Shown piece after piece: positions 9,301 through 60,900 of a stretch of DNA of 64,000 nucleotides. Position numbers and translations under genes: made by a program. Within the stretch, counting starts at the first letter, position 1. Each line of letters starts with the position of its first letter. The stretch spans positions 9,133,100-9,197,099 of the forward strand of contig NC_049987.1 of the NCBI RefSeq assembly GCF_000003815.2, read 5' to 3'. The stretch is from Branchiostoma floridae. Lineage: Eukaryota; Chordata; Leptocardii; Amphioxiformes; Branchiostomatidae. Below the pieces are notes generated by a model. That model did not search any database, was not told the origin of the DNA, and saw only the letters and a list, made by a program, of their open reading frames with translations.

Positions 9301-12300
9301 CTGAGTTGAGAGATCTCCTTTGAAAAACGGATGGAAGCTTCATTCATGTTGACAGCGGTCGGACGGGCGGTGACCAGATACGCCAAACTGTCTGTCACAA
9401 ACTTCACCAGTTCTTCTGCAGATCGGAAGTCCCTGTTGGCTACCTCCACCCCAACACTCAGACATCCTGCATTAGCAATGGCAGGTGCTCCACGAACCTG
9501 CAATATGGAAATGTAAAAACAACAACATTGGTTTATCATGATATCAACAACTTTCATTTTCTGCAGTTATATCAAAGAAAAGAAAAAATGAACATACATG
9601 TAGTACCACACTGAGTATATCTTTCTAAAAGAGGAAGGGGGTTTCTCCCTTCTACAAAAATACAATAGTTTAGCCTACAACAATTTACTTATTCAGTACC
9701 AATTACAAGTATTTTGCAGTTTAACATCATCTTCATGAATGATGCTTTACTTTTCTGCAGTTCCTAATACATTGTATCTAATATCTGCAGTCCTGTGTTG
9801 TTTTGCATCACATTATGCATATGAACCTGGTTAGGTCAAAGAACACTATATATGGCATAAACACCACCTGCATACATTTTCTGCACAACTTCCTGCACTT
9901 CACATCTATTCTGCTAGGTGTCTCTCTATCATTTCAACACTACAAACAAAGCACAATAATCTATATTAGGGCATCAATATTTCTGATCACTCAAGATTGA
10001 GTTCAGTTACATTTCTGCAGGCTGAACCATATTTAGTTTCAGTACTGCACTGTATCTCCAACTCATAGAATGAATGACAGCATATGAGATCTTTAAAGGT
10101 AATCATGTTGCATCATCATCATATTGTACTATCATAGAATTAAGGGTTAATGACCCGCCCCGAGGTGTATATGGTGTCATAACGCCTGGTCCTTTGTTAT
10201 AACCACCGAATAAAACCACAGAGTGAGCGAAGTGAACGAGGTGGTTTTATGAGGTGATTATAGCAAAGGACCAGGCGTTATGACACCATGTACACCGAGG
10301 AACAGGCGGGTTATTAACGTTATTATCATATAGCCTACCCAAACTTACAAACTCCTGTATGACGCATAGATCCCTTGGTACCATACGTGTGAATTCCTTT
10401 GTCAAATTTGTTCTTTGGTACATACATTTAAAAGGAGATTACTGATTGCATTTTGAAACCAAAATTTCCACAGAAAATATTCGAAACATTATAGTCTTTG
10501 GCTCTTTAGAACAACAAAACTTTATCGATGTTAACAGAAGGAGCCATTCCCATCTTCTTGCAGTCTGTACTTATTCCCTCTGCTCTGGAATATGTTTCGC
10601 TCCTTTTGATTGGCCAATGCCTTCATATCCTTTGTGTATCGCTCCTTCTGATTGGTTAGAATGAATCGACACTGGCACCGGTGTTGATTTGCATCGACAC
10701 TGGTGCCGGTGTCCATGCAAATCGACACCGGTGCCGGTGTCGATTCATTCTGACCAATCAGAAGGGCGATACACGCCGGGCTGGCGGGAATCTAAGTATT
10801 ACGGTGTCATAACCAACGTGGAACGGGGCCTTCTGATTGGTCCGCGGCGCCTGGCTATATGATAATTAGCATTAAATCTAAATATTCGAAATATTGCTAT
10901 CAGTTTTCTCTATCATTATTTCACATTAGAGGGAAACTACATCTTGCTAAAGAAAATGTATTCTGTCAGGTTGGTTCAATTCATTGTTGATACTTCTTAA
11001 AAAAATATACACTTTAAGTTAAAAGGATATATGACATTATGAGTAATTCTAGCAGCAATCCAGATCAGGAAGTAGACCGCAAATCTTATGTGACCTGCCC
11101 TTTAACTGGTAAGGGCTACAAATGTCCAGACCTTCAATTCCTCAATTATGTAGAAATTCAGGTCAGTGCATTTTACTGCACGGAGATTGAATTTCAGTCT
11201 TTTACTCAATGAAGTAGCAACAAGGGTAGAATAACAATGCAGGATAGAAGGTTTATTGCTGTACAGTCTACAGTAACACAGCCATAAGTTATGTGTGACT
11301 GTATAATGCTGCCATGCATGTCTGCTCTGACTGGAGCAAAAGGAAGCAGGTCCAGCCCTCAAACACATTTAGAGACATCATGTTACTGCACAAACATGTA
11401 GATATGTGGAATCACATTTGAAAAAAATCCTTAAATTATCATGGCTGTCAATGAACGAATGAATGAATGAAGAGGACCTATATATGTACGTTTCTGCTCT
11501 CACAAGCTGAGTACCGGCCAGGATGATAAAGTTCTGTTTAGTTCTAAATAATCTAGGTACAAGCTAAGTGTAGTAATAACATGTTATCTTACTACATGTC
11601 TACAGAGTCTAATGTATGCTAGTATGTAAAGGTTCAACTTCCTATCGCTTTTAAAGCAGTTGTAAATGTAAGGACATGGTTTATCTGATTGCGTAAGGAA
11701 TGTAAATTTTTCTATGCTATCTTAACTTAATATCAAGAACATGGGACCTTATCTTGTACACAGTTAAAAAGAGAATGCTGTATAGCGAACAGTCAACAAT
11801 AAAATGACACTCGTCTTCTATCTTTAGTTACAGTCAATAAAATTGTGTGGAATTAGGATCTGATAACCCTTGGCCTTGCCCATACTCCCATTCTTATATC
11901 CTACACAGCTGTATTGCTTTACCAGTTTTAGAATTTTGATTAGATGATATGAGCTATCTGCAACTGGCAAGTCCTGCACCATTTGTCCTGAAAAGTCCTT
12001 TGTAGCGCTGCGCCACAGCCCGTACAAATAACGTCAATAAGTGCTCAGCCCCGTTTGTGTTGGGCTCAGTGTTAATTATCTCCCTGCTCATCCAATCTCC
12101 TATATTGGCGTACACGTCGCGACCTTTTCAGCGGGAGAAGCGTTTGTGTCATTCCCTCGCTCTGCGCTGGTGACCTTTTTAATCTGGTCCATTATGAGGA
12201 GTGAGTGGGACCAGAGACAAGTCCCTAACCACCCTAATTACGCCACAGAGACATACTGCCATTTATGAGGCAAGTTACTAGGTTTTATCAGATCAATATG

Positions 12301-15300
12301 GTGACCCAATTTTCACTCATCTCTGGGTCCAGAACCTCGGGGTAATTTTTAGCAAAGAGCTGCATATGGATAATGATATCAGGTGGAAGAACTACAGAAT
12401 AGAATATGTACCATGTCATGTATGTATAATTTGTGAATATTATTCATTTTGTCATGCAACTTGTAGAAAAAAAACAGAATTTGAATTGCCTTCACTTTAA
12501 GACAATATCTGAAATGATATTTTTCCAGAGTAGCCAGCTTGATGTTTTAGGTGTCTATTTTCCAGGTATTGGTTTGCCTAAAGTAGGGCCAATCCCAGCT
12601 TTACCCACTTCTACACTCCAGTTACTGTAACTATGTTGAATAGAATTAAGCACAGGATTTAAAAAACTTTTACACAGAAAAATAAAATGAGGTTCAATGA
12701 ACTATAATAATGTATATACAGATATACACATTGATTCAGTCCATCATATACATGGTCTACATGTACTATAATAAGACATGTGTGTTAGTAAATTGGTAAT
12801 CATATCTACATTGTATTTGATTTTGAAGGTTAGATGAAAAAAAAACTTCTGCAAACACTGTATGGCACGATTATTACAATTACTTATGCAAGTACATGTA
12901 CTACACTTATGTTTTTTGAGTAGAAGGCTTCATATAAGCAAATTGTGCCTTTTGTCTGATACTCACAAATATATGTGAATTAAAAAAAATACACGGAGAG
13001 AAAGAGAAAATAAGGTACTTCTATTAAAAGACATACATTACATGGGTAATCTTAAACTAGCAGTGACCCACATATGTATCAAATCCTGTGTCATGCAATT
13101 CCAAAATCAATTTGCCCGCTGTTCAGATATACAAATGAAAGTTAAACCTAGTATCAACATGCTATCACACAAATGATTGGTGAGTCTCTATTGAAGCTAA
13201 TCTGCCTGAAGCACTGTTTGTTATTCACTGTCTCTAAATCTCAGCATCACTCAACTGTCACACGAGTATCTACAGTAGTGTGTTAAATAACAGTTAAAGT
13301 CTTCCACCCCATCAATCTGATATTTCATAAAACATCTACATGCATATCAACATCTTATGTTGATATTACTGTAAATGTATTTAAGTTTGCGGGGATTTAA
13401 TTTTACGGTAGCGGGAAAAAGGACTTTTGGCGGCGGTTTTAAGTTCACGGTAGCACCATGCACTGTAGTCTCTTACTGTCATGGAAAAATGTTTGCGGTC
13501 ATTTTAAGTTTGCGGTGAAGCGGCCACCGCAAAAACTGCAAACATTAAACCACCGCAAAAGTTTCTGCATTTACAGTACCTCTACAGTAATGTAAAGCAT
13601 AATTTACAACTGCCCTCTGCAAGTTAAAATACAAAGATAAGTCCCTCAAAACACATACCAGGTACTGTATAATAATAAGTTAATTACTTAGTTTTCATAA
13701 TATATACTACCGAAGGCAAGACAAAGTTTAATTCTAATCCTGTTCTTCCTGATATCTAGTCATCAATATCTATTTCATGTTCTGCAATATCATGTAATCA
13801 TTAGACAGGTATTACTGCAATAGTTCTATCAGCATATATAATATTCTCATTTAGTGCTATGGAGAAAATTTATTTTCCAATCAATTCAAGTCAACATTAA
13901 TTTGGAATTATACAGCTTATACCTGTAATGACAATTTGATTTTCATTACTGAAAAATTATCGAAGGGACAGGGAGAATACATGAATACAAATTCAAACTT
14001 TTGCATTTTGTCTTACCTTTTTTTGACACAGATACATCATAGCAGGTCAGCATTTTATGACCCAATTTTTTAAAACTTAAAAATAACTAGAAAGGCCGAT
14101 ATTTGCTTAGGAGCAAATACAGCATATTGCAATCCATCTTCATCCTTGAAAAAATCCCCAAATTCAACAATTTGAAGTAATGTTTGCTCAAAGGGAAAAT
14201 GAAGTACTGTGGGCACTTGTCCTAGACACCTTCATGCCGAATTTTAGGTCATTTGGTTTCAATACAAGGGCATAGAAGTCAAAAATATACATTTTTAGAC
14301 AAAAATGACGGAAAACCCAAAAATAAATAATTTTTGAAGTGATCTATGAAGAAGTTTCAATGGCGTCCTGTGAGCATATGTTCAATGCACCTCTGCACCA
14401 AATTTTAGGTCATTTGGTTTCTATACAAGGGCATAGGAGCAAAAAATATACATTTTTAGTCAAAAATGAACGAAAAACCCCCAAATAACTCATTTTTTAA
14501 GTGATCTATGAAGAAAGTGTTAATGGGACCCTGTGCTCATATGTCCAATGCACCTATGTACCAAATTGCAGGTCATTAGGCTTTCATAGAAGGGTATAGG
14601 AGCCAAAAATATACATTTTTTGTCAAAAATGGCCGAAAAACCCAAAATAACTAATTTTTGAAGTGATCTCTGAAGAAAGTGTTGATGAAGCCCTGTGCTC
14701 ATATATCCAATACACCTATATACCAAATTTCAGGTCACTTAGCCTTCATACAAGGGCACAGGAGCCAAAAATGGCCACTTCTTCAAGTGGCCTATGAAGA
14801 AAGTGTTGATGGGTTCCTGTGCTCATATGTCCAATGCACCTCTGTACCAAATTTCAGGTCATTAGGGTTTAATACCAGGGCACAGTGACCCAAAATATAT
14901 ATATTTTGTCTAAAAATGACCAAAAACCCTAAATATCATAATTTTCAAGGCCTCTATCAAAAAAGTGAAAAAAACGTCTGGGGGTATTTGCTATCCCTAC
15001 CTTCATGCCAAATTTCAGCTCATTTGGCCCAAAAATGAAAAAGTAGAATCCATTTGAAGATTTGACAGGAGAAGGAGAAGAGACCAACAAAAAACAATAT
15101 ATTGCAATCCCATACTATGTATGGATTGCAATATAATTATATGTCTGTTAGTGACTACTTATAAGGGTCAATACAAAAATATTTCGAGGCAGCCAATCAC
15201 TGCATTGTGTATGCCAAAGATTTTATCATTTACCATAAGAGCTTCTGTAGGACACATCATCATCATCATCATCAGTCCCGTAGCTTCTATATGACACTTA

Positions 15301-18300
15301 GAAAAATCAAATTTTAGCCCGTTTTGGCCCAACAACAAGTGAATATATACGATACTAGTACTTTCTTGCCTAATTCTACTTAACATATGTAAATGTCCTC
15401 TCCTAGCGGAGAGGTGAGTAAAAATAAAGTTTTGGCAGACATCTCATCTGTGATCAAGTTTGATGTGTCCTGCCATTGCACTCAGTCAACTGTGATATAG
15501 GATACAGAAGTGGCCATTAGACTTACATGTTGAGTGGAGAGGGACAGATAAGTGGTTGTATAACTTACACATGGCTGATCATCCCAAGGACATGCAACCA
15601 ACGCTTACAATTTACACACACTCATGACATCAGATGACACTGGACTTCTACTCCATTAAACCAGATAGAGTGTCTCATCATATCTTGGTGTGCCAGAGTG
15701 ACTAGTACATTAAGATTACAAACCAATGTGTTTCATGGTGCAGTTATCATACTAGTAAAAGGCTAGTCAGATATGATATCAGACAATGGCATACCCATGG
15801 AACAGATGTGCCATCTTATGACTTCAGTTTATATCTTAGGCCTCGGAAATTCAAATACTGTTTTTCAATATATTTTTAGGATAAGTGGAAAACTAATTTT
15901 GAAAGATTATGACAAAGTTTATTAAGTATGCTATAGTCATAGAAATAATTGAGTCAATGGATGTGACCCAATCTCATCTATGTTTGTATGTAAAGTTATA
16001 GAACATGGTGCATGCCAATTAACAGTAGTTACTCATGCAACTGGATATGATTTGAATTTGATAAATCAAATACATTTAAAAATACAATACTTCCAGCCAA
16101 ATTTTTCCCTCAGATAAACTCATTATAGATGCAATCCTAATTAGATGATTCTATCTTTAGTCAACAGCAATTTTCAGCAAGAACCACCAATACAATTGTT
16201 CACATTTGTATGTACACATTTTTGTTTATACCACATTGAATTGCACCTGGCTTATTACCTTAGCTTTCTGATTTTCAAGAATAATTGAACTGTAGGATAG
16301 CAGACAGGCTAGATTTATGGTCCTGAATCTGACCTAAAAAGATGATAAATTTCACAAATCGAAAGGTAGGCTGCTAGTACATGAATCTGTCAGAGAGGCT
16401 GTCAGTGAAAGTATCTATTATTGCAAATGTCTACATAAGTAGATCACTGGGCCAGCCAAGGGTCTATCCATGGCCGCTACAAAGTGTTCAGGAACAAAAT
16501 GCAAATTGCAATTGGGCATGTTGTTGAAAGGATAGCCAAAAAGGCAAAGTGCAGATGGGAGGGTTTAGATCATTTGTCACTCATATAGAATGCAACTTTT
16601 ATAAGTTTGAAATTTAAAGGTTGAAGATCCAATAGCCCTGTTGACACCTTACATTCTAAGGTTGTGAACTTCTAGAAATAGTTCTATCTAAATCTCCATT
16701 AGATACATCCATTTAGTTATCTCAACTTCAAGTGAGTTAAGCGAGGAGGTTTGCATTAAAAAAAAAGGATATAACATTGGGTCCAGTTAAGATTTGAAAT
16801 CAGGACCTTGAGATCTTTACATTTGCAAGTATACAAAAGTAACGTGTTCTGCACTGGTGTTCCAGTGCTGAATCAATGGGTCGAATCGGCCTCAGCACTG
16901 GTTTTCCAGTGCTGAAGAAACGTGCTGAGGGGCCTTGTTGCAGTGCTGAAGCTCCCTCAGCACTGGAATTCCAGTGCTGAACCCAATGCGAGCACTGGAT
17001 TTCCAGTGCTGAACTTCTCTGAGCACTGGTTCTCCAGTGCTGAACTGCCGTCAGCACTCGGGTACCAGTGCTGAACTCGCGGCGGAGAGGAGGCGAGCCA
17101 ATTCAAAGGTTATTCAGCACTGGTTACCCAGTGCTGAAACCGCTGTCGGCACTGGAACCGAGTGCTGATATACAAAAGTAACGTGTTCCGCACTGGATTT
17201 ACCAGTGCTCGGGAACTTTTCAGCACTGGAACACCAGTGCTGTAAAAACTTGAGCTCTGGGCTTCCAGTGCGGACGTTTATAAAGCACTGGAACGTTCCA
17301 GTGCTGAACGTAATATAGCATGCGCCCACACGGCTGTCTAAGTTCTTTCCTTTAGACTTAGATATATCTATGTCTTTTTAGTCAGAGGTAGACAACTAAC
17401 AGTTGGTCTATCTATGTGGTAAAGAGATCGCTTTTTTTTTTTTTACAAAGAATAGGTAGTTACAGGTGGACGACACATTTTGCTTCTGCGACAAAGTAGC
17501 ATCATTTAAAAAACAATAGGTAGTCAGAGGTAGACAACTCATAGGTGCTCTATATGTGTGGTAAAGAGATTGCTTTTTTTTTTTTTACAAAGAATTAGTA
17601 GTTAACGTTACAGTCGTGTCGCTACTTTAGAGTCGGTGGCTTAGGCACTCGGTTTCCAGTGCGGAATATTTGTGAGCACTGGAATTCCAGAGCTGAAACG
17701 TCCTCAGCACTGGAAATCCAGTGCTGGTTGTAGTCTCAGCACTCGGTTTCCAGTGCTGACAGGAGGGCTTCCAGTGCTGAAGCTGCCTCAGCACTGGATT
17801 TCCAGTGCTGACGCCGGCTGAGCACTGGACTTCCAGTGCTGACGACCACTTCAGCACTGGTGTTCCAATGCTGACAGAGGAGACCGTTACTTTTGTATAT
17901 TTGCTTTACCTTTGACACATTACCCTAGAATTCCTGTTACCTCACATGCATTCTGATCTCAAGTCTCATGCATCAAGCTTTTTCAACCTCCTTGCATGCA
18001 TCAAGTCTCTGTGACTAGTGTGAGGGCTTATAGACTCTAGCAGTAGTAAGGTAGCCATAAAAAGTCTGACATAATGATAAGCCAATTATTTGCCAACTAT
18101 CAAAAATATAGAATTATAGAGCCCACACTCTTATCATGTGATGAGCATATGATTGTGTAGGTGGGGACTAGGGATTAAGGAGGGGGAGGGGGGCGTGGTA
18201 GTCTACCTTCATCTCTTTGATTGCCCTCCAGCCGTCTTCGACAGTCTTGATGTCTTCATACTCCGTCCTATCAGGCAGCAACAGCTGGTTCAGCAACTGC

Positions 18301-18964: not shown

Positions 18965-21900
18965 GTAGGCGGTGCTCTGTGCAGGTTGGCTAGGTGGGAT
19001 TTTTCTTGCATCGAAAAAATAAATATTGCAGATTTCATCTATTCTCTGTAAGGTCGCTTCTAGATATTACATGCTATTTTCCCAACAGACCGTCCGACAT
19101 GGCTTCCCGTACCAGCCCACCGCCATGGCGTACGATCCCGTCCAACACATCCTGGCGATCGGTTGCAAGTCTGGTTCTATTCGGCTGTATCCTTCGCCTG
19201 CCCCCGAGAGCGGCCCCTCAGTCGCCCGCGAGGTAGATAACTAGGTTTACGGGACGTGGGATGCGGGGAATGATCGGGTGGGAAGAAGCTCACTGTACAG
19301 GTGCACTAAGTCAATTCTGGGGATCCCCCTTTTTCCTTTCATAAGGTGTGAAAAAGGGGAGGGGCCCATATTTGCAATGGACCGGGAGATGTTTAAAAAC
19401 CAAACCAATTCATTTCAATAACAAGGCCCCCCCGATGGTTAGCGCTGGCATTCAGCGACGTGACTCTCTGATAACAGTCCAATCTGGCGGAATAAATAGC
19501 CATTGACTAAGGCTTTTGAGACATATGTATATGTCTCTGATATTTGTAGAGGCCCGGAATAGGGTTTCCCCTTGTATTCCTACCTTGCTGTATATTAGAT
19601 TTATCATTGCACCAGGAACACACATCTCCTCTTGTTTGTAATATCACAGGTGTGCTACTGATTGTTTTTTAGCATTGTGGAAATTTTTTATAGAGGAAAA
19701 CAGCAACAATATCAGATTCTGCCAATGGAGGGATCAGCTATGACTCAATGTAGGGCGCATATGATTAGAGATGTTTGGTGCCGCCGGATCGGTAGTTTGG
19801 TAGCATAATGAAGGCAGGCTCATGAATACAGTGTGCAGAATAAGCCACAATACACTTTGCTGGCAAAGGATTCAGGTCTTCAATGTAGTTAGCCTCCTCT
19901 CTCATTACATTACACAAAGGCAGGGGTCAGCTCTGAGCACAAGTGCATTTATGTGATTGTATTTTTCATGGAGGTGGTTAGGAATGCACGCGGGTGGCAA
20001 CATTAACGTGATTGCGGAGAGGAAGGGGGGGTCGAGTCCCTCCCATGATCTGTCGTTGTCATGCTAATTGTTTTTGGGGACTCCAGCGTCGTTAACCTTC
20101 CTCCAGTTGGCCTTTAATTTGGTGACCCGTGGTGTTGGAGTGTGGTTGCATAAATTGGTGGCATTGATGACATCATGTTGGACAGCTCAGGTGCAAATGG
20201 TCTCGCCTCCAGCAGGAGACCCATCAAACTACCATCCAGAACCACGCTGGGCAGACATGCAGGGGACACAAAGTACTTCATAACCTAATTTTCAACCCGG
20301 AGGAAAAACTGTAATGTAGCCCCCTTTAATTGAAATGCTACCTCGTATGATAACATCACTAATAGATTCGAATCCAATATCTAATTTGTAATTCTTCCAA
20401 GTAATCCAGAGTTATGGGCCAATACATTTTGCAGCATTCTATTTCAGATAAAAGATTATTTTTCACATTGACTATTAAGCTCTAATTTTTCCTATATTGA
20501 TCAGTTAAATGTCCACGTAGTCCATTCAGTCCGTAGATCGTAGTAATTATTTATGTCCAATCAGATTAAGGCACTGGGTTACTTGCGTATGGTCACCAGT
20601 CTGAACTGCACCAAAGCAGTCTCTGCTTTATGTACTTACATTATGTACTGACTTTGTGTTTGTTGTTATGAATAAGCAATTACATCTGTATTAGTATGTG
20701 GTAGGAATAAGTAACTTTTGCACAACAAACTGGATAATTTCTAGCACAATTTGGAATAAAGAAGAGAAGGCTGTATGAGGGATGGTACTACTTTGGTAGT
20801 TGCTGAAATTTTTTTGGGTTAGTATATCCCCATTTTTATTGCCATTTTAAAATCTCCTATTTCTTGCCATGTTACGCAGAAGGGCAGCAATACTGGCTAT
20901 ACAATTAGATGCAGATAAAGAAATTATATATTAGTACATTGTCCTTTCTTCATTTTTATTTCTGATGCAAAAAATAAATTGCAAAATTTGTTCATTGTTT
21001 CAACTTCCCTTAGAATGTCTTTCAGCAAACAAAGTATTGACATGAGGGCTATTGCAATCTTAGCATAAATGATTCAGATGGTAAGTTCATTATACAAACG
21101 TTGTTGTCTCGATTATGTAACAGTGATTTTGATTTGAAAAATGTTGTTATGCACTTGTAATGGATAACAGTACAATGACACTAGTAATAATGTACTTAGT
21201 ATTAGATCAACATACATGTATATCATATGCCACATCATACCTGAAATATACTAGCCTTCCTTCTTTGACTGGGTTGCCAATGTGTTCTAAATGGAAAAAA
21301 AGGCTATGGAATGATTTTTCTTTTTTCCTTTTGTATATTGCCTAATATGTATACCTGCCTAAGTGCTTTAGCCTTTAGTCCAATATNNNNNNNNNNNNNN
21401 NNNNNNNNNNNNNNNNNNNNNNNNNNNNNNNNNNNNNNNNNNNNNNNNNNNNNNNNNNNNNNNNNNNNNNNNNNNNNNNNNNNNNNTACCCCAATTATTG
21501 ATATGATAATCCACAATTAAGTAGCTATAATGAATGGTATTCCTTTCATGTTATTGTTATTGAATATTATGTCAGGCCAAATAATCTATTGCTACTACAA
21601 AACAAGAAATGTTGGTAGGTTTTATCCATGAAGTGATGTGTATGATTCAGTGGTAAAATGACCATGTGAATCCATGTAGTTCCTTATACCAGATAAGTGC
21701 ATTTTGTGAAATGAGGGTGAACACAAAACCACATGTTACCATTGGCAGGAGGCCATTTTTGTCTTGTATGTATCTAAGAACACAGCTGCATTTAGAGATG
21801 TCCTGTTGGCACAGCTTGGACACAAAATAGAGAAAAGCTGTAAAATGGTACAAGATTGTTTGGGTCAATTTCAGCTGTTTTGATCCTAAACATTGTTTAC

Positions 21901-24900
21901 AACAGAGAAGGACATCATATTAAAGGGTTGCAATCGAATTCAGGTGGTTTTCAGTACGAGAGTTTGTCGTCTGAAGACTGATTACTTCAGTCCCTATTGT
22001 AGAGATCAGCACATATAAAATAGATTTGTAACTACAAATGTTCTGTCTTAATGCCTTCGTCAGTGTTTGTAAAGCATTTAGATTCAAATTTATAAAATGG
22101 TATTGTTTAAGGCAGGGCTATTAGCTAGGGGTACACTTAAGCCTGTTAGTTCTTCAGTCGGACTTTTGTGCCTCCATCCTTTTGACCATTGTTTTTAAAT
22201 GGTTATCAATCAGTGGTGCTCCCCATAGACGTTGACTTTGGACCATTCTTCATATTCTCTTAAGAAAGGAAAGCTCAACACAGCAGCCTTCTCCTGAAGT
22301 ACAATCGCATGATGAATAATTTACAAGTAGCAAATGTTCTGAGGCACCTGTATAGAGCAAAGCTTGCCAACATTGGGGCAACGATGCAGATAGTGTACGG
22401 GACCAAATTGTTTTTGTTCGAACACCGTGTAATATCAAGAGTGTTGAACATGAAAAGATGGTAAAGTGGTCGACTTCATACCGAGGACAAGGCATGATGA
22501 CGCTTTTCCATAGCTGTGTGCCATGCGGCTTTGCTACGGCTTGTGTATTCAGCTTAACACACTGGGTCATCCCTATGTAGTGCACCCTTATCGCTAAGTG
22601 TGTTGGGTTCTTTTACGTGAAGAGGTTTGGCACCAAAAGCGCTGTCTGTAAGGCCCCATCTGATGATGTATGTGACTCTTTTCTAGACGTGTCGAGACCT
22701 GGGCATGAACTCGGGCTGCAGGTTCCATAGTGGACATGTGTTGGTGGTAGATTTGGGGTATGATGTAATAAGTTACATCATGAGAAGGTTGTATTGGTAT
22801 AATAATCTGCCAAGTAGTTAGAGAAACTATATCTATATGGGTTTGAAGTGCCACCTGCATAAATTATGCAGGTACAATTGGAGCTGTGCAGGTATTTCTG
22901 CTGTCTACCTGCACCTAACCTGTACTGATCCATGTACTGGGTTTTATACATAAATGTTCTATGATGTAGGTGCATGTGGATTGTTATTAGCTGTATTGAC
23001 TGTTACTATCTTTTAAGTATAAGATCAAAAATAGCAATGGTTTTTCAACAATTCTAATATGATCCATACTTCCTAAGTTCAGAGTGTTGCAGGTAAAATT
23101 TGTCCGGTGCAGGTAATTTTAAATGTTACCTGCACCAGTGCAGGTATGCAGAAAAAAGTATTTCGACCCCAGGTCTATTTCCTTACAAGTTATTTTGCTT
23201 CATTTTATGTCAAATTAGATACATGACTTTAAAAGGAAATAAACATACATTAATTTATCAACTTCAAGTAAAGCCATTCATATGCAATTGTTCACAAGTT
23301 TCTGATTTTTTTTTTCACAAAACGCAAACAGGCTTTGTTTCATATCTGTAGTGTAGCAGTTCATTTGCAACTTTTGTTGACTTTCTTATTTGGTTATCAG
23401 CATGTATGATATGTATCTGTAGAAATACACAACAAACAGTACAAAGGTCATGGCCTGGTACCTGCTTGCTATTTTTAGCTCTTATTGGCAAGAATGAAAT
23501 AGTTTTCGTTTTCTCTTATACTTCATATTCTTAAGTATGACACTGGTAGAAAAACTTCACAGGTATGGAAACAAAACGAGAGTTGTCAGTGTACGTTTCT
23601 GTCATTATGCCATTGGAATTGAATTTAAAAACAAAACAAAAGGTGCATCAATGATTGTGGTGCGATGTAATGTTCTCACACAGGTGTACCTTATCAAGTT
23701 GAGTGAAAGGTTGGGTATTTACAAGATAAACAGCAGCAGAAGTAGTGTCAATACCTGACACTTCAGATTATACACCGCCGGTGACCTTTGACCTTCTGTC
23801 TGACCTGAACTTCAGGGTCAGTGTGTATGTGTATGTGTTCTCACCTGTTGTGTGTGATGTAAGCAGAACACAGCCACAGGATTGGTTAATTCATTGTGAG
23901 GCCATGTTTGTATGTGTGTACTTCCCAAGCCATTTCCAAGAAATATTTTGTATTTTATACGAATTGAGAAAATAGACAGGTACATGTACATGTACATACA
24001 AATGTACTATCATGCAACTGTACTATGTAATGCAACATAACTGCATCATTGTATTTGTAGTGTGGAAATTTTCATTGTAGACTTGTGGCTTTATCGTTAT
24101 ATATTTTTGGACACATTGTAAATACATGTTGGATTCCTGGCTTGACACTGTACCTTTGGGACAGGCATTTAACTTTAAGTACTTAACAGTTAACACCTGG
24201 GTGTAAAATTAAAGTGGGTGCCTGAAAAACTGAGGGAGGAGAGGGATGCCTTCCAATGCCATGCCCTAGACACAATGGACAACACCAGCTGTATGGCCAA
24301 TACTTAGCCTGATTAAATCTCACTTATAGCAGCCTGCCCAACATCCACCTGCCTACTAGTGGGGAGGGGCCAGTTACAGCCCCGGACAGCAGAGTTTGTG
24401 TTACACAGACTAGCCAATACAGGACTACCTTTGCCTTTTCAATACAAACATAAATAGACGTGGAAAGCGTGATATGTAAGTGGCCATCAAATTGACCTAT
24501 ATACATATTACTGTTTTCCAGGAAACTTGTCATTTCTAAGATGAATTACTGTTCACACCTGTGTGTGTGACGTACTTTGGTCAAAGAACCTTTGTTGTAT
24601 AAACATCCAGCTGTGCCAGACGAAGTGACAGTAAAATATGATGTCATTTGTTATGGCTTGAGTAGCATTGAATGGGAGAATGGCTGGGCTGGAGGACATG
24701 AATTTTGAGAGGTCACGAGTCTAATTCTTGCCATTTCTGGTGAGACGTTGTGTCCTTGGAAAGGCACTTAACACAACTTTCTTCACTCCACCCAGGTGTA
24801 AAATGGGTACTTGAAGGTACATGTACATGTAGAAGGCAGTAGTGCCTTAAACACATTGAATATGAACCCACTGCCACTGTAGCCTCAAAAAGGCTTTTGG

Positions 24901-30900: not shown

Positions 30901-33900
30901 AGTCACGTGTTTGCAGTAAGTTGGCTTTATAATATTACTAGAACATGCAGAGGGAAGGAACAGATTGTATTGATGAGGGTCAATGTTTGAAGATGTTTTT
31001 GTTATTAAATTTTATTGATAAATCAAGAGAGATACAGACAGTGAACCATCTAGAACACAAAGCAATACTAAGAATGATGCCTCAAATAAAGAAATGATAA
31101 TACAGCCAAGAACATAATGTACCCCATTTTCACCATGAATGTGTGAAAATGTTGGTGGTTATGTTTAACATAACATATTTTCTTTCTGCTGTCCATTTGT
31201 CATTGAAAATTCCTCTGTCATGATTCCTCCTGACAGATGTACTTCCTTTCCTGTCATCCTTTCACCGTTAAGCCAAAAGAATCTTCCTGTTAGTTCTTAA
31301 GTCCCCAGATACCTGTCCCTGTAAGGATCACAACAGGTGAAAGATGTATGAGTACAAACAAGGAGTTAATTACCTTTCATGCTGTAACAAATACGTCAGT
31401 TTGAATTCCAATCCATTCCCTGCAGATTGGTATAGCCATCTGTTACCATATTTCACTTTGTGATTCCCTCAGGTCTGTGCTACCCTTTCTTCTTATTCAT
31501 TCCTCCAGCTCAAATGTTGTAAAAACTGATTGGGTCTTATCCTTAAGCAAGTCACCAGGTGCATCCTCTTGACCGTTGGTTGTGAGATGTATGTGAGGAA
31601 TATGGAAGTATTTTTATTCATGTACCTAAAGGTCAGTCTGTGATTGCTTTTGTGTGGCAACAAGGTTTCCTCCATGTTGCCTGCAGGGACCCTTTCTTTC
31701 ACTAGGGTGACTTTTGACCTTTCTGCAATACGCACCCTGCATGCTAAGGGGCATATTTTACATGACGTAGAGGTGTGCTTGAAATATAGATGACTGCATT
31801 ATACTAAAACCCTGCTTGTTCTTAATTCTCTTTGAAGCTTTGCTTAAGTCTTTGTTTATTCTCAGATCACTACATATACAGTATTTCAATAGACACAATT
31901 GGAAATCAGGATCCAGTAATTTTAGCTAAAATCAATACAACAGGGCTGCGATTTCCGCTCTAAATTAGAATGTTGGAGACTGGCTTGTCGATTATTTTAT
32001 AGTATCAGTTTTCAAACATCTGTTCTTGTAAGAGATTGAAAAAAAACTAGAAAGGCCGACATTTGCTTGAGAGCAAATACAGCATATTTCAGCCATCTCC
32101 CTCCCCATGCAACAATAGACTATTTCAAAATCACCCATTTGAAAAATCACTTTTACTAATGGCGGTTTAACCCAAAAATGAATCTTACAAAATTCCCCCG
32201 TTCAACTTCAAGAATGGACTCCAGTGCACCCTATGTGAATTTGCACAATAGACCAGTCCAGAAATACTCCCACTGAAACCTTGGCCTTTTGAATAAGAAA
32301 CCAAATCCAAAATTGAATTCAGCAAAAAAGGTCCCAGTGCATGAAAAGGTATAATAGACCAGTCTAAAAACACTTCCACTAAAAATTGAATTTTGAATCA
32401 TCACCACCCGTCCAAACTGAATTTGAAAAAATCCCCCTTCCGTGTGCAAAAAATGGATTCTTCCATGTAAAGTAGAGCAGTCCAAAAATACATCCGCTAA
32501 AATAGGACTTTGACATAATCACTGAAGTCCCAAAAATGGATTTAAAAAAAAGCCAATAGATTTTTAAAAAATCCCCCCTCCATGCAAGAATGGACTCTTC
32601 CAGCACACCCATTTAAAATTGCAAATTAGACCAGTCCAAAATAACCCTGCTGAAAGACTTTGACAAACTAGAAGTCACCAAAGTCCAAAATATGAATTTA
32701 AAAAAATCCCCCCTCCGTGCGAGAATAGACTCTTCCAGCACACCTTCTGTAAAACTGCAAAATAGACCTGTCCAAAAATACACCCACTGAAAGACTTCAC
32801 CAGTCCGAGGATGAATTTTAAAAAAAATGAACCCCTCCGTGTAAGAATGGACTCTTCCAGATAACACCGGACTCGCTGATTGGCTGTCACCCTCCCCCCC
32901 CCCTCTTTAGGATATAGATTCAGGCTAAGTGATTGGTTACCTATCTAATTAGATTAAATAGACATATATGCCAGAAGGTGCAATCTGCAGCTGGGGTCAA
33001 CGACCTTAAGGTCATTGACCCCTGTGGCTATTGGAAAAAAAATCCCCAAATCTATCATTTTGACGTAGTCTATGACAAAAATTATACATGTGTCATTTGA
33101 ATGAATATCTGGTGCACCATTTTACCAAAATTTAGGTCATTTGGTTTTAAAACCAGAGCACAAGAGCCAAAAGTGTACTTTTTGGTCATAAAATGGCCAA
33201 ATAATCGTAAAATTAAGCATTTTGTTGTACTGTATGCCTCAACTGTTAATGAATCCATGTGCGCATATGTCTAGGGCACTCCTATACTAAATTTCAGGTC
33301 ATCCGGTTCTAAAACCAAGGTACAGGAGCCAAAAGTGTCCTTTTTTGGTCAAAAAATGACCAAAAAATCGCAAAAATAAGCATTTCGTTATACTGTACAC
33401 CAAAAGTGGTATTGAATTTGTATGGGGGAATTATCAAAGCACATCTGTGACAAATTTCAGCTCATTCGGTTATAATACCAGGGTACAGGGGGCCCAAATA
33501 TACAGTTTTGGTCTTAAGATGACCAAAAAACCTTAATAAAATCATTTTAAAGGTAGATATGAAAAAAATGAAAAAAACGTCTGGGGATATTGACCCACTC
33601 TACCCTTGTGTCAAATTTCAAGTCAATCGGTTCAGGAACAACGGAGATACCGTGTTCCGAAGATTTGACAGGAGAAAGAAAGAAAGAAGAAAGAAAGAAA
33701 CATTACGAATACAATATATTTCACCATACCTATGGTATGGCTGAAATATAAATACAGTACGACATCACAGAGTGCAATTCAGATGCCAAAAGATGGGAGG
33801 ATAGATATAGACCTTCTTCTCTCAATCACAGTGTGATATATGGTGGCACCTGTCCTTGGTGCTGAATGAACAGTGAGTATTTTTCTAGGTCACTGGATTA

Positions 33901-45900: not shown

Positions 45901-48900
45901 AGTTCTACCCAAAGTGGTGAATTAGCTTCCACTTCTGTTGTGTCATGTTTTGAAAGGTAAATCTTTACACAGAAAAGTTTTGGTGCCGCCGTGTCTGGGT
46001 ACAGAACCACCTCACAGCAGGAGGGGAAGCGTCAAACGGTTTGGTTAAAAACTCTCCTCTTAACGTGACGGACACCTTGCCAGTGGGCAGTATTTAGAAT
46101 TAATGGATGAACGTTGAAAGGATATTGACAATGTGGTTGCCAGAAGCGAAGTCTAGAAATTCTATCAACCTTTGAAAGGTGATCATAGTACTTAAATGTG
46201 CAATATAGCCTAAAGAGAAAGCTACTATTACGAAGGTTCCATTTGTAGCAAAAACTAAGCTTCATTCGCTTTACTTAATAATCGATTCTATGTTTTCGGT
46301 ATGATTTGGGAAGATTTCAATAATTCAGACTCTATCAGTTCCATGAAAAAAACCCTCAGATTGCCCCAGTGTTATTTGCGGCTACAAAATTGTATTCAGC
46401 ATCATTGCCATATGCAGGCAGTCCTTTTGATGCCAATTCTACCTGTCATACACAGAACAATGGAGATGGTGTCATCTGAATTGCCATTGACTCCACTGCA
46501 TTTTGCCTGTCAGAATATTGATAAGGACATTTAGTGAAAAATGCATGATGCCGACTGGCTTTGATGGTACCAGTAGTGCGAACAGAATAACTGTAATTTG
46601 AGCCCATCCCAGTGCCACCATTATCCAAGGGATTTTCATCTGCTTGTTAAGCCTGAAATATTGTGACATGCCTTCAAAGAAAATTTGCATGCTCTGCAAT
46701 ATAACTTATGAACTGTCTGATCATTGTAACTTTGCTCATGTTCAAAGTATGCATTTAGAATTTTCAAATTTGTCTCAACATTCTCCCAACTGCATTTCTG
46801 AATCAGAAGGGAAAAGGTTGATTGCAATATTTTTTTCACTAAAATCATACAGAACTCTTTGTGGGTTGGAAGTGCCTGAGCGCTAGGTTCAACATCTCTG
46901 GACTCCAAAGTTGATATGTTAGTACTTGCAAGGGAATTTGGGGGCTGAGCATTCATGACCCTCCCACCAGAAATGGCGCAAAACGATTTTTTTACGACCA
47001 CCAGGAGTGAAACCGTGCTCCAGTTTTTTGTACATGTGGCCGTTTATCTGTCTCGGGAGGTAAGACGAAGGCTAGACGCGGAACAACCTCGCACATTTTC
47101 CATTCCCACGTTGTCTTTCAGTTTAGCAGAACCATCCGTCATTGTTGTCATCTATTCAGGAGAGAAACTATTTGATCTAGAAGATCTTCACATCATGTGC
47201 AGTAATATTTAATAATTGACATGGTTGTGTTTGTTTCTCAGGTCTCAGAGAACTCACCCCGGCCCTGTGGTGTCCCTCAGCGACAATCCAACCGACTCTA
47301 GTAAGGTGAGCAAAAAAAGGAGAAAATTGCATGCTGACTTATTTACTCCAATTCAGATTTGCCTGACAGCCTATATTCTTCTCTTCAGGGTATTGTAAAA
47401 GGATTCTTATTCTTTTGCCCTAGAAAAAAGACTGATTTTTAGCATGTTAATGTGCAAGATTCCTGCATTGTCAGATAAAACTTAAGACAATGATACTTTT
47501 ACAGAAAAGGCCTTTCTGATTTGGGTGGAGACAGGCTTAGTTTGCTCCATCAGTATCAACAGTTGGCTACTTTATTATGATTCGTGATTGTAGCTTCAAA
47601 AGCATGTACCGTATATTCTCGAATAAAGTACGCACTTTTTTAACTTTTCAAAATTGAAAAGGTGCTACAAGTTGTTGCCAAAGTTGGGGTGCGTACTTTA
47701 TTTGAGGTCACTGCACAGAGAAATGGTAAAAAAGCCTAAAATAAAGCAAGGTGGAGCTACACTTCTAGTAATGTTTCAAAACATGCACATTGTTGTTGTC
47801 TTGTAGTTGTCTAAACATGAAACAAAGAAATTGTCTAAACATGATTTACATAAGATTGGCATTTGCATACAATCCTTTTGAGTTAGTGACTTTGACTTGT
47901 ACAACTGGTTTTCCCTGATTTCTTCTACCAGTTTTCAGTGATTTTTATAATTTGCAGTAGGCAATTCACAAGTTTATAGAGACAATGACAGTGTAAATGC
48001 AGGGTATTTCATGCAAAATAACCTGGGGAAAACATCATAAATTTGAATTTATCCAGTTAAAGGTCTGTTCAAAATTGATGGAGAAGGGGTGCGTACTTTA
48101 TTTGAGTTTTTCCATTTTACCTTTCAGTCCCAAAGATCTGTCTAAGACTTTTCCAAAATCAGGGGTGCGTACTTTAATTGGGGTGTGTACTTTATTCGAG
48201 AATATACGGTATGTCTCTGATAAAAAGCCCTTACTACACATTATGACCTGTGTAACTAAAGAAACCTCAAGACATTTGTCGTCACATACGATACATTTAT
48301 TGTTGCTATTTCTTTGTAATCACTCAATAATGCTGCACAATCTTTATATTGATTGTAAACATTATGTACAGCAAGACGAGATTCCAACCTAAATTACTTT
48401 CAATATTCTGGTACTCTCAGGGTTTGAAATTCATTTTTTTAGATATGTGGCCAGTGCACCTAACATACACTGTAAAAATGTAGGTGAACAGATAAAGAAA
48501 TGAGTGCATGTCCATTGAAATAAAGACTAGTATAACTGTTCAGGGTTGTAGCCAGCACCTGTCCTTCTGTCCTTTGATGGAATTTTGCAGCTGGGGACAG
48601 AAAAAAAATTTGCCCATTCCATCCTCTGTGAGCAAAATTTACCCTCAAAATGCAGGAAATAGCATTTCAGAGGGTCTAGATTTTAGAATTTTCCTTGGGA
48701 GCATGCCCCCGGACCCCCTTAGGAACGCTGCATCAAAGCCATTCAAAATCAAGGGGACAGAAAATGATTTCTAGCTGGCTACAACTGTTACAGCAAAACC
48801 TGATTGCAAATATTACTGTATGCCTCTCCTGATAGCTAAAATCTGGATTTCTATAGCTAACTTTTGTAAAATTTATATGACTATATAAATATAAATATGT

Positions 48901-57900: not shown

Positions 57901-60900
57901 GCGGTAAATGAGGACATTGTAACTCAGTTGCATCCTTACCACAACATTTAACAATGATAAACTAAGCTTCCATGTAGCAATTGTAGTACAAGTACATCCA
58001 TGGGAAAGGAGACATCCTTGAACTTTTCTTTTAATTGTAAACTGCCTGAAGTCTGAATGTAGATTCATTGTGCTATTAACACCGTTACTCAAATGGTATC
58101 TTTTGCAGAAGAAGAGTTTCAACATTAACATCAATGTCCCTTATTCCCAACTTTACAGCGTGTCAAAACTGCATTTTAGATTGATAGCGTTTCTGGAAGG
58201 TAAAACTAAGGGATTACTCACATGTAATGTTAATGCAAAATGCCTTTGCCCATTGGCTGAAAGTGAAGTTCAAAATCAATTCTTCCTCCCCAAAATAGAA
58301 GCGAGAATATCCAGTGCAACCCTTCTGGCTATCTCCTTTTGTGTAATTTGGTTTGATGGATGTCAGAAGGACCACCGAGGCTTATTGTGTCCCTATACCA
58401 GCTTCTGTCTGTTGTGATGAAACATCGTTCTTGCTTAACTGCTATAGAATTTTTTTAGTCAAATGATAGTTTAGTTTGACTTTGACTAACAGTTAACAGT
58501 TAACTTTATTTCACCAGGATGTACATGTTGTCTACTGACACTATCAATGGTTTCTTGGTGAGAAAACCCTGACATGGAATAACAAACACAACATAACATT
58601 ACAACAAATAATCATAGTAAAGCTGTGAAAGGTGACTAAAATAAACCATAAATCATAAAGTACTTGATTGATGACCATAAATTGAAATGGTTATTTCATA
58701 AAAACAGTCATTTATTTTTGTCTAGACATCAAATCATAAAAAACGAAAGTCAAACCATGGATCGACTTAAATGTAAAATCACTCTGAGTGGAGCATGCAT
58801 ATCAACATGTAGCAGGTTGGGTGGTACTATCATGACGTTATAGGATTCACTTAGTAAATCATTTTGTGGCCGCATGTGAAATATGAGCAGTGACACCTGC
58901 AGTACAATGTGAACCAGTCATAACTGCTCTGAAGAAGGTGACAGACTGTCACCAAAATGTTGGTCTGAATCAAGTAATGGTTGTGTAAAAGAATCTCTTT
59001 ATTCAGTGGTATACCAACGTGATAAAACTATTCACAAATTTACTAAGTAATTTGATTATTGGCCTTTTCTGCACAGGTGAAGTCTGGCCCTCAGAAGATG
59101 GTCCCAGGTTACCAGGTGGACCTGTGTGCCCAGCTAGTGACCGTTGAGGGAGAACCGCCCTCCCAGATTCTCTGCCTGGCCATCAACTCCTTATATGGGC
59201 TGTAAGTGCCGAAACATTCACCATGATGACATAGCAAAGATGTACACAATGCATCTCAGTTGGATAGTTTTGTGTTAAGTACAATGCTCTGCCAAAAAGG
59301 CTTTGAGAGCCAACAGTCATTGATGGAGTACTAAGAGGAATGTATAGAAATTGATGGTAACATCAATATGAGATGGTCAAACAACAAGATATCATCATTC
59401 AAATTTCGTGCCAATCATACACTTTCTCTATACTTTATCCTGGACTACAGGCAACGTTTAACTTCACCACTTCTAAAGGTTACATACTGTTTTCCCATTG
59501 CTGCCATCTTTTGCATGCTTGCCATGAAGGCTACTTTATGTACTGTAAATGTTGTTGAGAAAAATCCCAACCTACAAGACACACTGTTCCAGGATGGCGT
59601 TCGGCAACATGCAGGGCCTGGCTATCGTTGACATAATTCAGAAGACGACCCTCCTGAACCTGGGCACCCCCGACCTGTATGGCTCTGCCGACCCGTACAC
59701 GCGGACACAGCCCCGATCCCCGCAGAGAAAGAAGCCGCCAGCGGGTCTCGGGGACCTTGGTGAGGCACAGGCTGTGGAACAGGTATGAGATAAAGTTTTT
59801 AACTTGTGTTTAGAAGATAAAGTTTTTAACTTGTGTTTAGAAGATAAAGTTTTTAACTTGTGTTTAGAAGATAAAGTTTTTAACTTGTGTTTAGAAGATA
59901 AAGTTTTTAACTTGTGTTTAGAAGATTAAGTTTTTAACTTGTGTTTAGAAGATAAAGTTTTTAACTTGTGTTTAGAAGATTAAGTTTTTAACTTGTGTTT
60001 AGAAGATAAAGTTTTTAACTTGTGTTTAGAAGATAAAGTTGTTAACTTGTGTTTAGAAGATAAAGTTTATAACTTGCGTTTAGAAGATTAAGTTTTTAAC
60101 TTGTGTTTAGAAGATAAAGTTTATAACTTGTGTTTAGAAGGGTGAGTGTTGAAAGGGAAGTATCCAGATGACAGAGCAGCAAGAACAAACTTTTGCATGC
60201 TTTTATTAATGGAATATATATCGGTAACACATTTGGTGTCATCTATATTGTGTAATGGCAAACATGTCTTTGCAAACTGCAATCCTATGACTTCAAAAGA
60301 ATGTGCAATATTATGTTTTGATCTTTCATTGATCTCAAGAACCATTAAATTCTCAGGAAAAGATAAAGCCTAGCTTTGACAGAAATCTCTGCCTCAGGTG
60401 ATGAAAATCAATAAAGTTGAATGTCGTACAGTTATGATTTAGCCTTCATATATGTTTACCATAGGACAACATGATGCAGATGCAAAGCTATCAAAACTAT
60501 ATTGATTCGACTTTTGGGCACTTTCACTGATGCCCTCCTACCCTGCTGTACTTTCTGCCTGGAGTGACATTGACTTAATAATGGAAAAAAATTACCTGCA
60601 TTTGCTCCTATCAAACCATTTGATACATAATTTTCCCATTCTTACTTGTTATCCTCTTACAGCATAAGTCAAGTGCTCACAGTCTTTAGTCGCTCTGCGT
60701 TTACAGTCAGTCATAGAATATTTTGTCCTACCGGTAGTTTTTGTAGACAACAAAAACTGATAAGTTGGTCCATTCGGTAGTATTTTTGCTCCACTCTCCT
60801 GAAGACCTGTGTATGTCTTAGTACCTTCCCCATGCTATGCCTCCGAGTCACAACAGAAGTTGTTCCCTGACGCCTCGCTGTCTGTGTCTCCCAGCACTCC

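Follow-up and report, generated by a model that had tools for sequence, protein, structure and literature searches.

Background

Palindromes or other short motifs near the ends have been described in several groups of DNA transposons. In soybean, the CACTA element Tgmt* ends in imperfect 13-bp repeats and carries unevenly shared subterminal palindromes, 2 near one end and 12 near the other, according to the available text of its description (PMC2613891). The same text relates that the subterminal repeats of En/Spm are bound by an element-encoded protein, and proposes this for Tgmt* as well (PMC2613891). In piggyBac and piggyBat, near-end palindromes are bound by the paired C-terminal domains of a transposase dimer, and the left end of piggyBat carries three imperfect palindromes, set apart from one another and A/T-rich at their centre, as given in the accessible part of PMC11707139. 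Jozin has a 12-bp motif in 19-23 copies, split between its ends (PMC8978399, available portion). The repeats within the TIRs of Galileo, which duplicates 7 or 8 bp in D. willistoni, are said to hold extra transposase-binding sites, as cited in the accessible passages of PMC4168063 and PMC4079207.

We have analyzed a palindrome array in intron 1 of the MRI1 gene, within a window of 64,000 bp (the whole stretch of DNA analyzed). With its exact 15-bp inverted ends the locus spans 16830-17899 (1,070 bp); it has 19 full palindromes, 12 to the left and 7 to the right of a 336-bp centre. As far as Tgmt* is described in the text at hand, the locus resembles it in having short TIRs (exact 15 bp here, imperfect 13 bp there) and an asymmetric subterminal motif in both orientations, with palindromes numbering 12 + 7 here and 2 + 12 there. 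The claim of a previous sequence-only reading that no described family has this layout was thus too strong (PMC2613891). The two also differ: Tgmt* is 20.5 kb long, whereas the locus described here has no coding sequence, its ends are not CACTA, there is no 3-bp duplication, and its palindromes are mostly 31-32.5 bp apart. The repetition of a subterminal motif in direct and inverted orientation at both ends is a CACTA/En-Spm trait that the locus has. Membership of the CACTA group was rejected, with ends that read TATACAAAAG and no 3-bp duplication at equal trims of 0-5.

Palindromes near the ends are shared with piggyBac and piggyBat, but they are far more numerous here and their sequence is unlike those described in the accessible part of PMC11707139. 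Jozin is comparable in having subterminal motifs at both ends, so far as the available portion of its description goes. Galileo and Tetris likewise have tandem repeats in their terminal regions (PMC4168063, PMC4079207, accessible passages); their TIRs are long, whereas the exact TIR here is 15 bp. The 'mirage' minisatellites of amphioxus are also tandem repeats near exon-intron boundaries of animal genes; in those, however, the splice boundary itself is duplicated, and palindromes are not mentioned in the text available from PMC3087553 and PMC3902484. No animal element with the present layout was found among the titles and abstract openings listed by searches of the open-access literature. A search of literature text for the letters of the arms and of the end matched 26 papers; among the matches listed, both arm strings are present and the end is absent.

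Layout of the array and its gene context

Exons 1 and 2 of the host gene, joined at the splice sites, match the methylthioribose-1-phosphate isomerase 4ldq (E 5e-28), which we take to be the human enzyme. Pfam matched the exon-2 and exon-3 frames to IF-2B and returned no match for the exon-1 frame. The array is situated inside intron 1, ~0.3 kb from the donor. A divergent LLGL-like frame begins near 19083, ~1.2 kb from the array; it matches LLGL2 6n8p with E 5e-10 (phmmer) and has no Pfam match. This neighbour and the presence of introns indicate animal DNA. The features of the locus are as follows.

9498..18206, minus strand: intron 1 of the host gene MRI1 (splice sites placed by eye; context, outside the definition of the element)
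16830..17899, no strand assigned: whole element, bounded by exact inverted ends, 1,070 bp
16830..16844, plus strand: left terminal inverted repeat TATACAAAAGTAACG, exact match
16849..17306, no strand assigned: left palindrome block, 12 units, half-site at 16940
Left-block unit starts: 16849, 16893, 16958, 16990, 17021, 17052, 17115, 17147, 17188, 17221, 17252, 17283
17169..17196, plus strand: internal copy of the left end and of the first 13 bp inside it, 27/28 identical to 16830-16857
17307..17642, no strand assigned: AT-richer centre without palindrome units, containing two 84-bp direct repeats
17643..17873, no strand assigned: right palindrome block, 7 units, half-site at 17771
Right-block unit starts: 17643, 17674, 17705, 17737, 17789, 17820, 17852
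17885..17899, minus strand: right terminal inverted repeat, identical to the left one (TATACAAAAGTAACG) in reverse complement

The sequence-only reading had reported about 20 palindromes with inverted ends in MRI1 intron 1, which agrees with the 19 full units, the two half-sites (16940 and 17771) and the exact 15-bp ends found here. The segment 16825-17904 contains 16 palindromes whose arms are 8 or longer and whose loops do not exceed 8; its 200 dinucleotide-preserving shuffles contained 0.15 on average and never more than 2. The direct repeats previously noted in the centre, 142 bp apart and with a T run, were likewise recovered: the two 84-bp copies (17379-17462 and 17521-17604) are identical at 75/84 positions, and each has a run of 13 T at the same position. 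There is no long ORF; among the stop-to-stop frames that overlap the element, the longest has 100 aa.

Sequence of the units

Among the 19 units the arms agree with the consensus CAGCACTGG/CCAGTGCTG at 321/342 positions. Agreement is closest in the inner 7+7 bp (259/266 positions), and both 9-bp arms are exactly consensus in only 6/19 units. The outer two positions of each arm depart from the consensus in 14/76 cases, 11 of them on the left, so that conservation of these outer positions is lower on the left than on the right (11 vs 3 departures, 38 positions each; Fisher p 0.036). Changes at the outermost position of the left arm occur in 4/12 left-block and 3/7 right-block units, and in the right arms they number 1 and 0. 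A T precedes the left arm in 89% of the units and an A trails the right arm in 84%; with these bases included, the site is more aptly given as TCAGCACTGG/CCAGTGCTGA, effectively TCAGCACTGG-NNTT-CCAGTGCTGA.

The loops are 3-6 nt long, 4 nt in 16/19 units, and end in TT in 12/19. The range of 4-6 nt given earlier is therefore right for most units but too high at its lower limit. Twelve within-block spacers have a mean pairwise identity of 0.296, the same as when shuffled (0.296, p 0.47); this comparison covers the 12/17 within-block spacers of 9-10 nt, trimmed by one base per side, the five longer than 10 nt being left out. The earlier description of conserved arms with varying spacers holds for the spacers tested. 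These comparisons suggest that the spacers have drifted over a long time while the arms and the distances were held.

Spacing and helical phase

The centre-to-centre gaps between successive palindromes are 44, 65, 32, 31, 31, 63, 31.5, 42, 32.5, 31, 32, 359, 31, 31, 32, 52, 31 and 32 bp. Of these 18, twelve fall at 31-32.5 bp, close to three helical turns at 10.5 bp per turn. A recurrence every 29-35 bp had been proposed; it describes these twelve but not the other six, which range from 42 to 359 bp (42, 44, 52, 63, 65 and the 359-bp gap across the centre). The 42-bp gap spans the internal copy of the end. Three of the irregular gaps (63, 42 and 52) lie no more than 0.5 bp from whole turns, and 44, 65 and 359 are off by 2 bp.

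Phase coherence, scanned over periods of 9.5-12.0 bp, peaks at 10.5 bp, with values of 0.86 within blocks and 0.70 overall; the regular period alone accounts for most of it. When all irregular gaps were jittered, the observed coherence was matched or exceeded in 1.4% of trials with the blocks taken apart and in 3.5% with all sites together; with the 63- and 65-bp gaps (about two periods each) left out, these figures became 7.1% and 8.4%. The helical phasing of the irregularly spaced sites, which would place them on one side of the DNA, is no more than suggestive.

Ends, internal copy and target site

The inverted pair around the array, TATACAAAAGTAACG...CGTTACTTTTGTATA, matches at 15/15 bp. 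Exact copies of TATACAAAAGTAACG occur in the 64 kb at 16830 (+), 17169 (+) and 17885-17899 (-), so that the extra internal copy seen at 17169 in the initial inspection is exact and in direct orientation to the left end. Inverted ends with a 15/15-bp match are what a cut-and-paste TIR transposon would have; a third, internal copy is present as well. Four more matches to TATACAAAAGTAACG in the window have 3 mismatches each, which is chance level (shuffle mean 2.97), and no second element with the same ends was found in the 64-kb window, where this is a single locus. Exact inverted ends alone are not rare here, since outside this element the window has 11 further pairs of exact inverted repeats, each 15 bp or longer and no more than 3 kb apart, gap letters aside.

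Beyond the 15 bp, the outer ends share 4/5 of the next bases, so that 16830-17899 is a safer boundary than the limits 16825..17904 first given. The sequence upstream of the internal end differs from that upstream of the left end, and both ends begin at the same T; between the left and internal ends, as between the left and right ends, divergence sets in immediately ahead of the T in TATA. One additional base, an A, is common to the internal end and the right end, and the internal boundary is thus sharp only against the left end. Such a start of the third copy is as expected of a transposase-defined terminus. The internal end directly abuts the palindrome unit upstream of it, a junction that points to the insertion of one copy into another, or to recombination between the two.

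TA or TATA would suit as a target duplication at the outer element (1,070 bp) as well as at an inner one (17169-17899, 731 bp). AT also fits both, and ATAT fits the inner one. The case for TA or TATA as the duplicated target is weak, as the same letters could be part of the end. Tc1/mariner elements duplicate TA, which fits at the present locus, but so does TATA. There is no target duplication of 3 bp or 5-10 bp when both ends are trimmed equally by 0-5. Elements of the piggyBac group duplicate TTAA; membership of that group was rejected, with no TTAA duplication and with TTAA absent from the 20 bp next to each outer end. By eye, the hexamer ATTTGC was seen as a direct repeat at 16821-16826 and 17899-17904; it would be a duplication only if the ends were unequal.

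Interpretation

We consider it somewhat probable (roughly 0.55) that the locus is a copy of a non-autonomous DNA transposon carrying an array of dyad-symmetric protein-binding sites, possibly in two overlapping forms of 1,070 and 731 bp with the right end in common. The exact inverted ends and the third internal copy make the locus look like a mobile element, as the sequence-only reading proposed. A mobile lineage is inferred because a lone intronic insertion has nothing obvious to hold 19 sites. Protein binding is the likeliest role of the palindromes because of the precedents in Tgmt*/En/Spm, Jozin, piggyBac and piggyBat, and a dyad protein-binding site, also suggested at the outset, is the best reading of the constrained arms. 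The lower conservation of the outer left arm counts against it, since a perfectly symmetric dyad site predicts no such difference. Against the transposon reading in general stand the single locus, the lack of a long ORF, the weak case for a target duplication, the weak phasing and the number of other exact inverted pairs in the window.

The element would probably insert at TA or TATA. A transposase dimer, or an accessory DNA-binding protein from an autonomous relative, may bind the palindromes, one per dimer; sites about three helical turns apart would turn the dimers to the same side of the helix, and dimers so aligned could help to recruit cleavage to the 15-bp ends. Selection for mobility through many rounds of transposition would have kept the arms and their spacing while the spacers and loops drifted. 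If this is true, the array records the needs of its binding protein (the dyad bases, the spacing and perhaps the helical face are kept, and the rest drifts), it is an animal counterpart of the arrays of subterminal palindromes in CACTA elements of plants, and it offers a ready substrate for finding the protein. If there is one copy only, the array is a curiosity of a single intron. A more far-reaching proposal, which we regard as tentative and rather doubtful, is that the locus represents a family of animal DNA transposons not described before. Its mobilising protein would bind 24-bp palindromes that are set out, with helical phasing, in a long array on either side of the element, and this arrangement would have arisen independently of the plant CACTA arrays.

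The same array might instead be a palindromic minisatellite without binding function, enlarged by slippage and unequal exchange inside an ordinary MITE; its arms would then seem conserved since slippage copies palindromes. We find this unlikely, but it has several points in its favour. The period is regular at 31 bp and Tandem Repeats Finder reports matches in the array; a 59-nt segment that includes the half-site is repeated in direct orientation across the blocks (16922-16980 vs 17753-17811, 83% identity); and satellite arrays inside mobile elements are known, in the oyster (PMC8268682) and in the foldback element Tetris (PMC4079207), from the text available in both cases. Yet the arms keep 94% agreement while the spacers compared (12/17) are no more alike than shuffled ones, and recent duplication of whole units in tandem is disfavoured because it should leave similar spacers. 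A foldback-type element with long inverted arms built of tandem repeats, the carrier named in the sequence-only reading, is improbable. Inverted ends and repeat-rich arms are indeed present, and inverted segments of up to 85 nt reach 75% complementarity, but palindromic units match in both directions anyway and exact end homology extends over only 15 bp. The regular spacers (the same 12/17), compared between blocks, lean slightly towards inverted orientation without significance (0.324 inverted vs 0.288 direct, p 0.20), whereas the loops point the other way: all 19 give 0.479 direct vs 0.394 inverted (p 0.038, random flips). For the 16 four-base loops alone the same-direction p is 0.025, a test that drops 3/19 loops that are not 4 nt long, two of which begin with AA. 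On this mixed evidence we lean towards blocks that run in the same direction, and the foldback proposal keeps a small probability.

Folding of the transcript strand was one of the checks suggested initially. For 16825-17320 the minus strand gives a much more stable fold than its 100 shuffled versions (z -16.3), as would suit transcription of the array into RNA hairpins or into small RNAs derived from them. The fold is, however, a direct consequence of the palindromes. There are 21 arm changes in 13/19 units and none restores pairing; a single pair of changes falls at matching positions of both arms (unit 17643), and there too pairing is unrestored. Selection on hairpins, or correction of one arm by the other, should leave compensated changes, so that repeated RNA hairpins and conversion acting on the palindrome, both raised in the sequence-only reading, are disfavoured; with 0/21 changes compensated, hairpin-templated correction of the arms was rejected. 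No Rfam family reached its gathering score in the window, and we rate the RNA reading the least probable of all, very unlikely indeed. ARAGORN predicted no tRNA genes. Only slightly better placed, and still quite improbable, is a host regulatory array, an enhancer or insulator that serves a dimeric transcription factor close to MRI1 and its divergent LLGL-like neighbour. Its conserved arms and regular spacing fit such a role, as does its position just inside MRI1 and close to the start of the LLGL-like frame; the inverted ends and the third internal copy, on the other hand, indicate a mobile origin. Both may hold if the host afterwards recruited an existing insertion.

Occurrence in other sequence collections

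A scan of prokaryotic genomes returned 55 stretches and a scan of viral contigs 66 stretches, each with one palindrome site. The 15-bp end was found in 49 stretches of viral contigs, of which 48 have a single copy and one (L147) has two, in opposite orientation and ~10 kb apart. The viral contigs yielded no combination of a palindrome, one fixed spacer length and a half-site, no combination of the end with the first unit, and no match to a 20-bp piece of the centre. We read all these prokaryotic and viral matches as chance matches, in collections that contain no animal genomes and may omit records close to the window's genome.

Other repeats and genes in the window

A second palindromic array lies in the same intron at 10644-10765, where three palindromes lie inside a 122-bp inverted repeat with 55/61 pairs matched. 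Its core is near CGACAC[T/C]GG-N2-CCGGTGTCG and its ends are CCTTCTGATTGG; CACTGG is common to this core and the main array, which may be chance. Three separate palindromes of the ACCTGCA...TGCAGGT type occur at 22853, 23127 and 45455. Other exact inverted pairs are found at 47607-47631 with 48187-48211 (25 bp, ~0.6 kb apart, perhaps another MITE) and at 10171/10264, 27734/29065, 30244/30566, 54992/55199 and 63607/63686. Arrays of 162- and 163-bp units are present at 14240-14772 and 33128-33530, with AATTTCAGGTCATT in both consensus sequences, and a row with a 124-bp period (14671-14895) overlaps the array at 14240-14772. A tandem array at 59788-60140 has a 27-bp unit in 13.1 copies with 96% matches. 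On the minus strand, an open frame at 3654-4394 matches PF03417, the acyl-CoA:6-aminopenicillanic acid acyltransferase family, with an E value of 4e-11.
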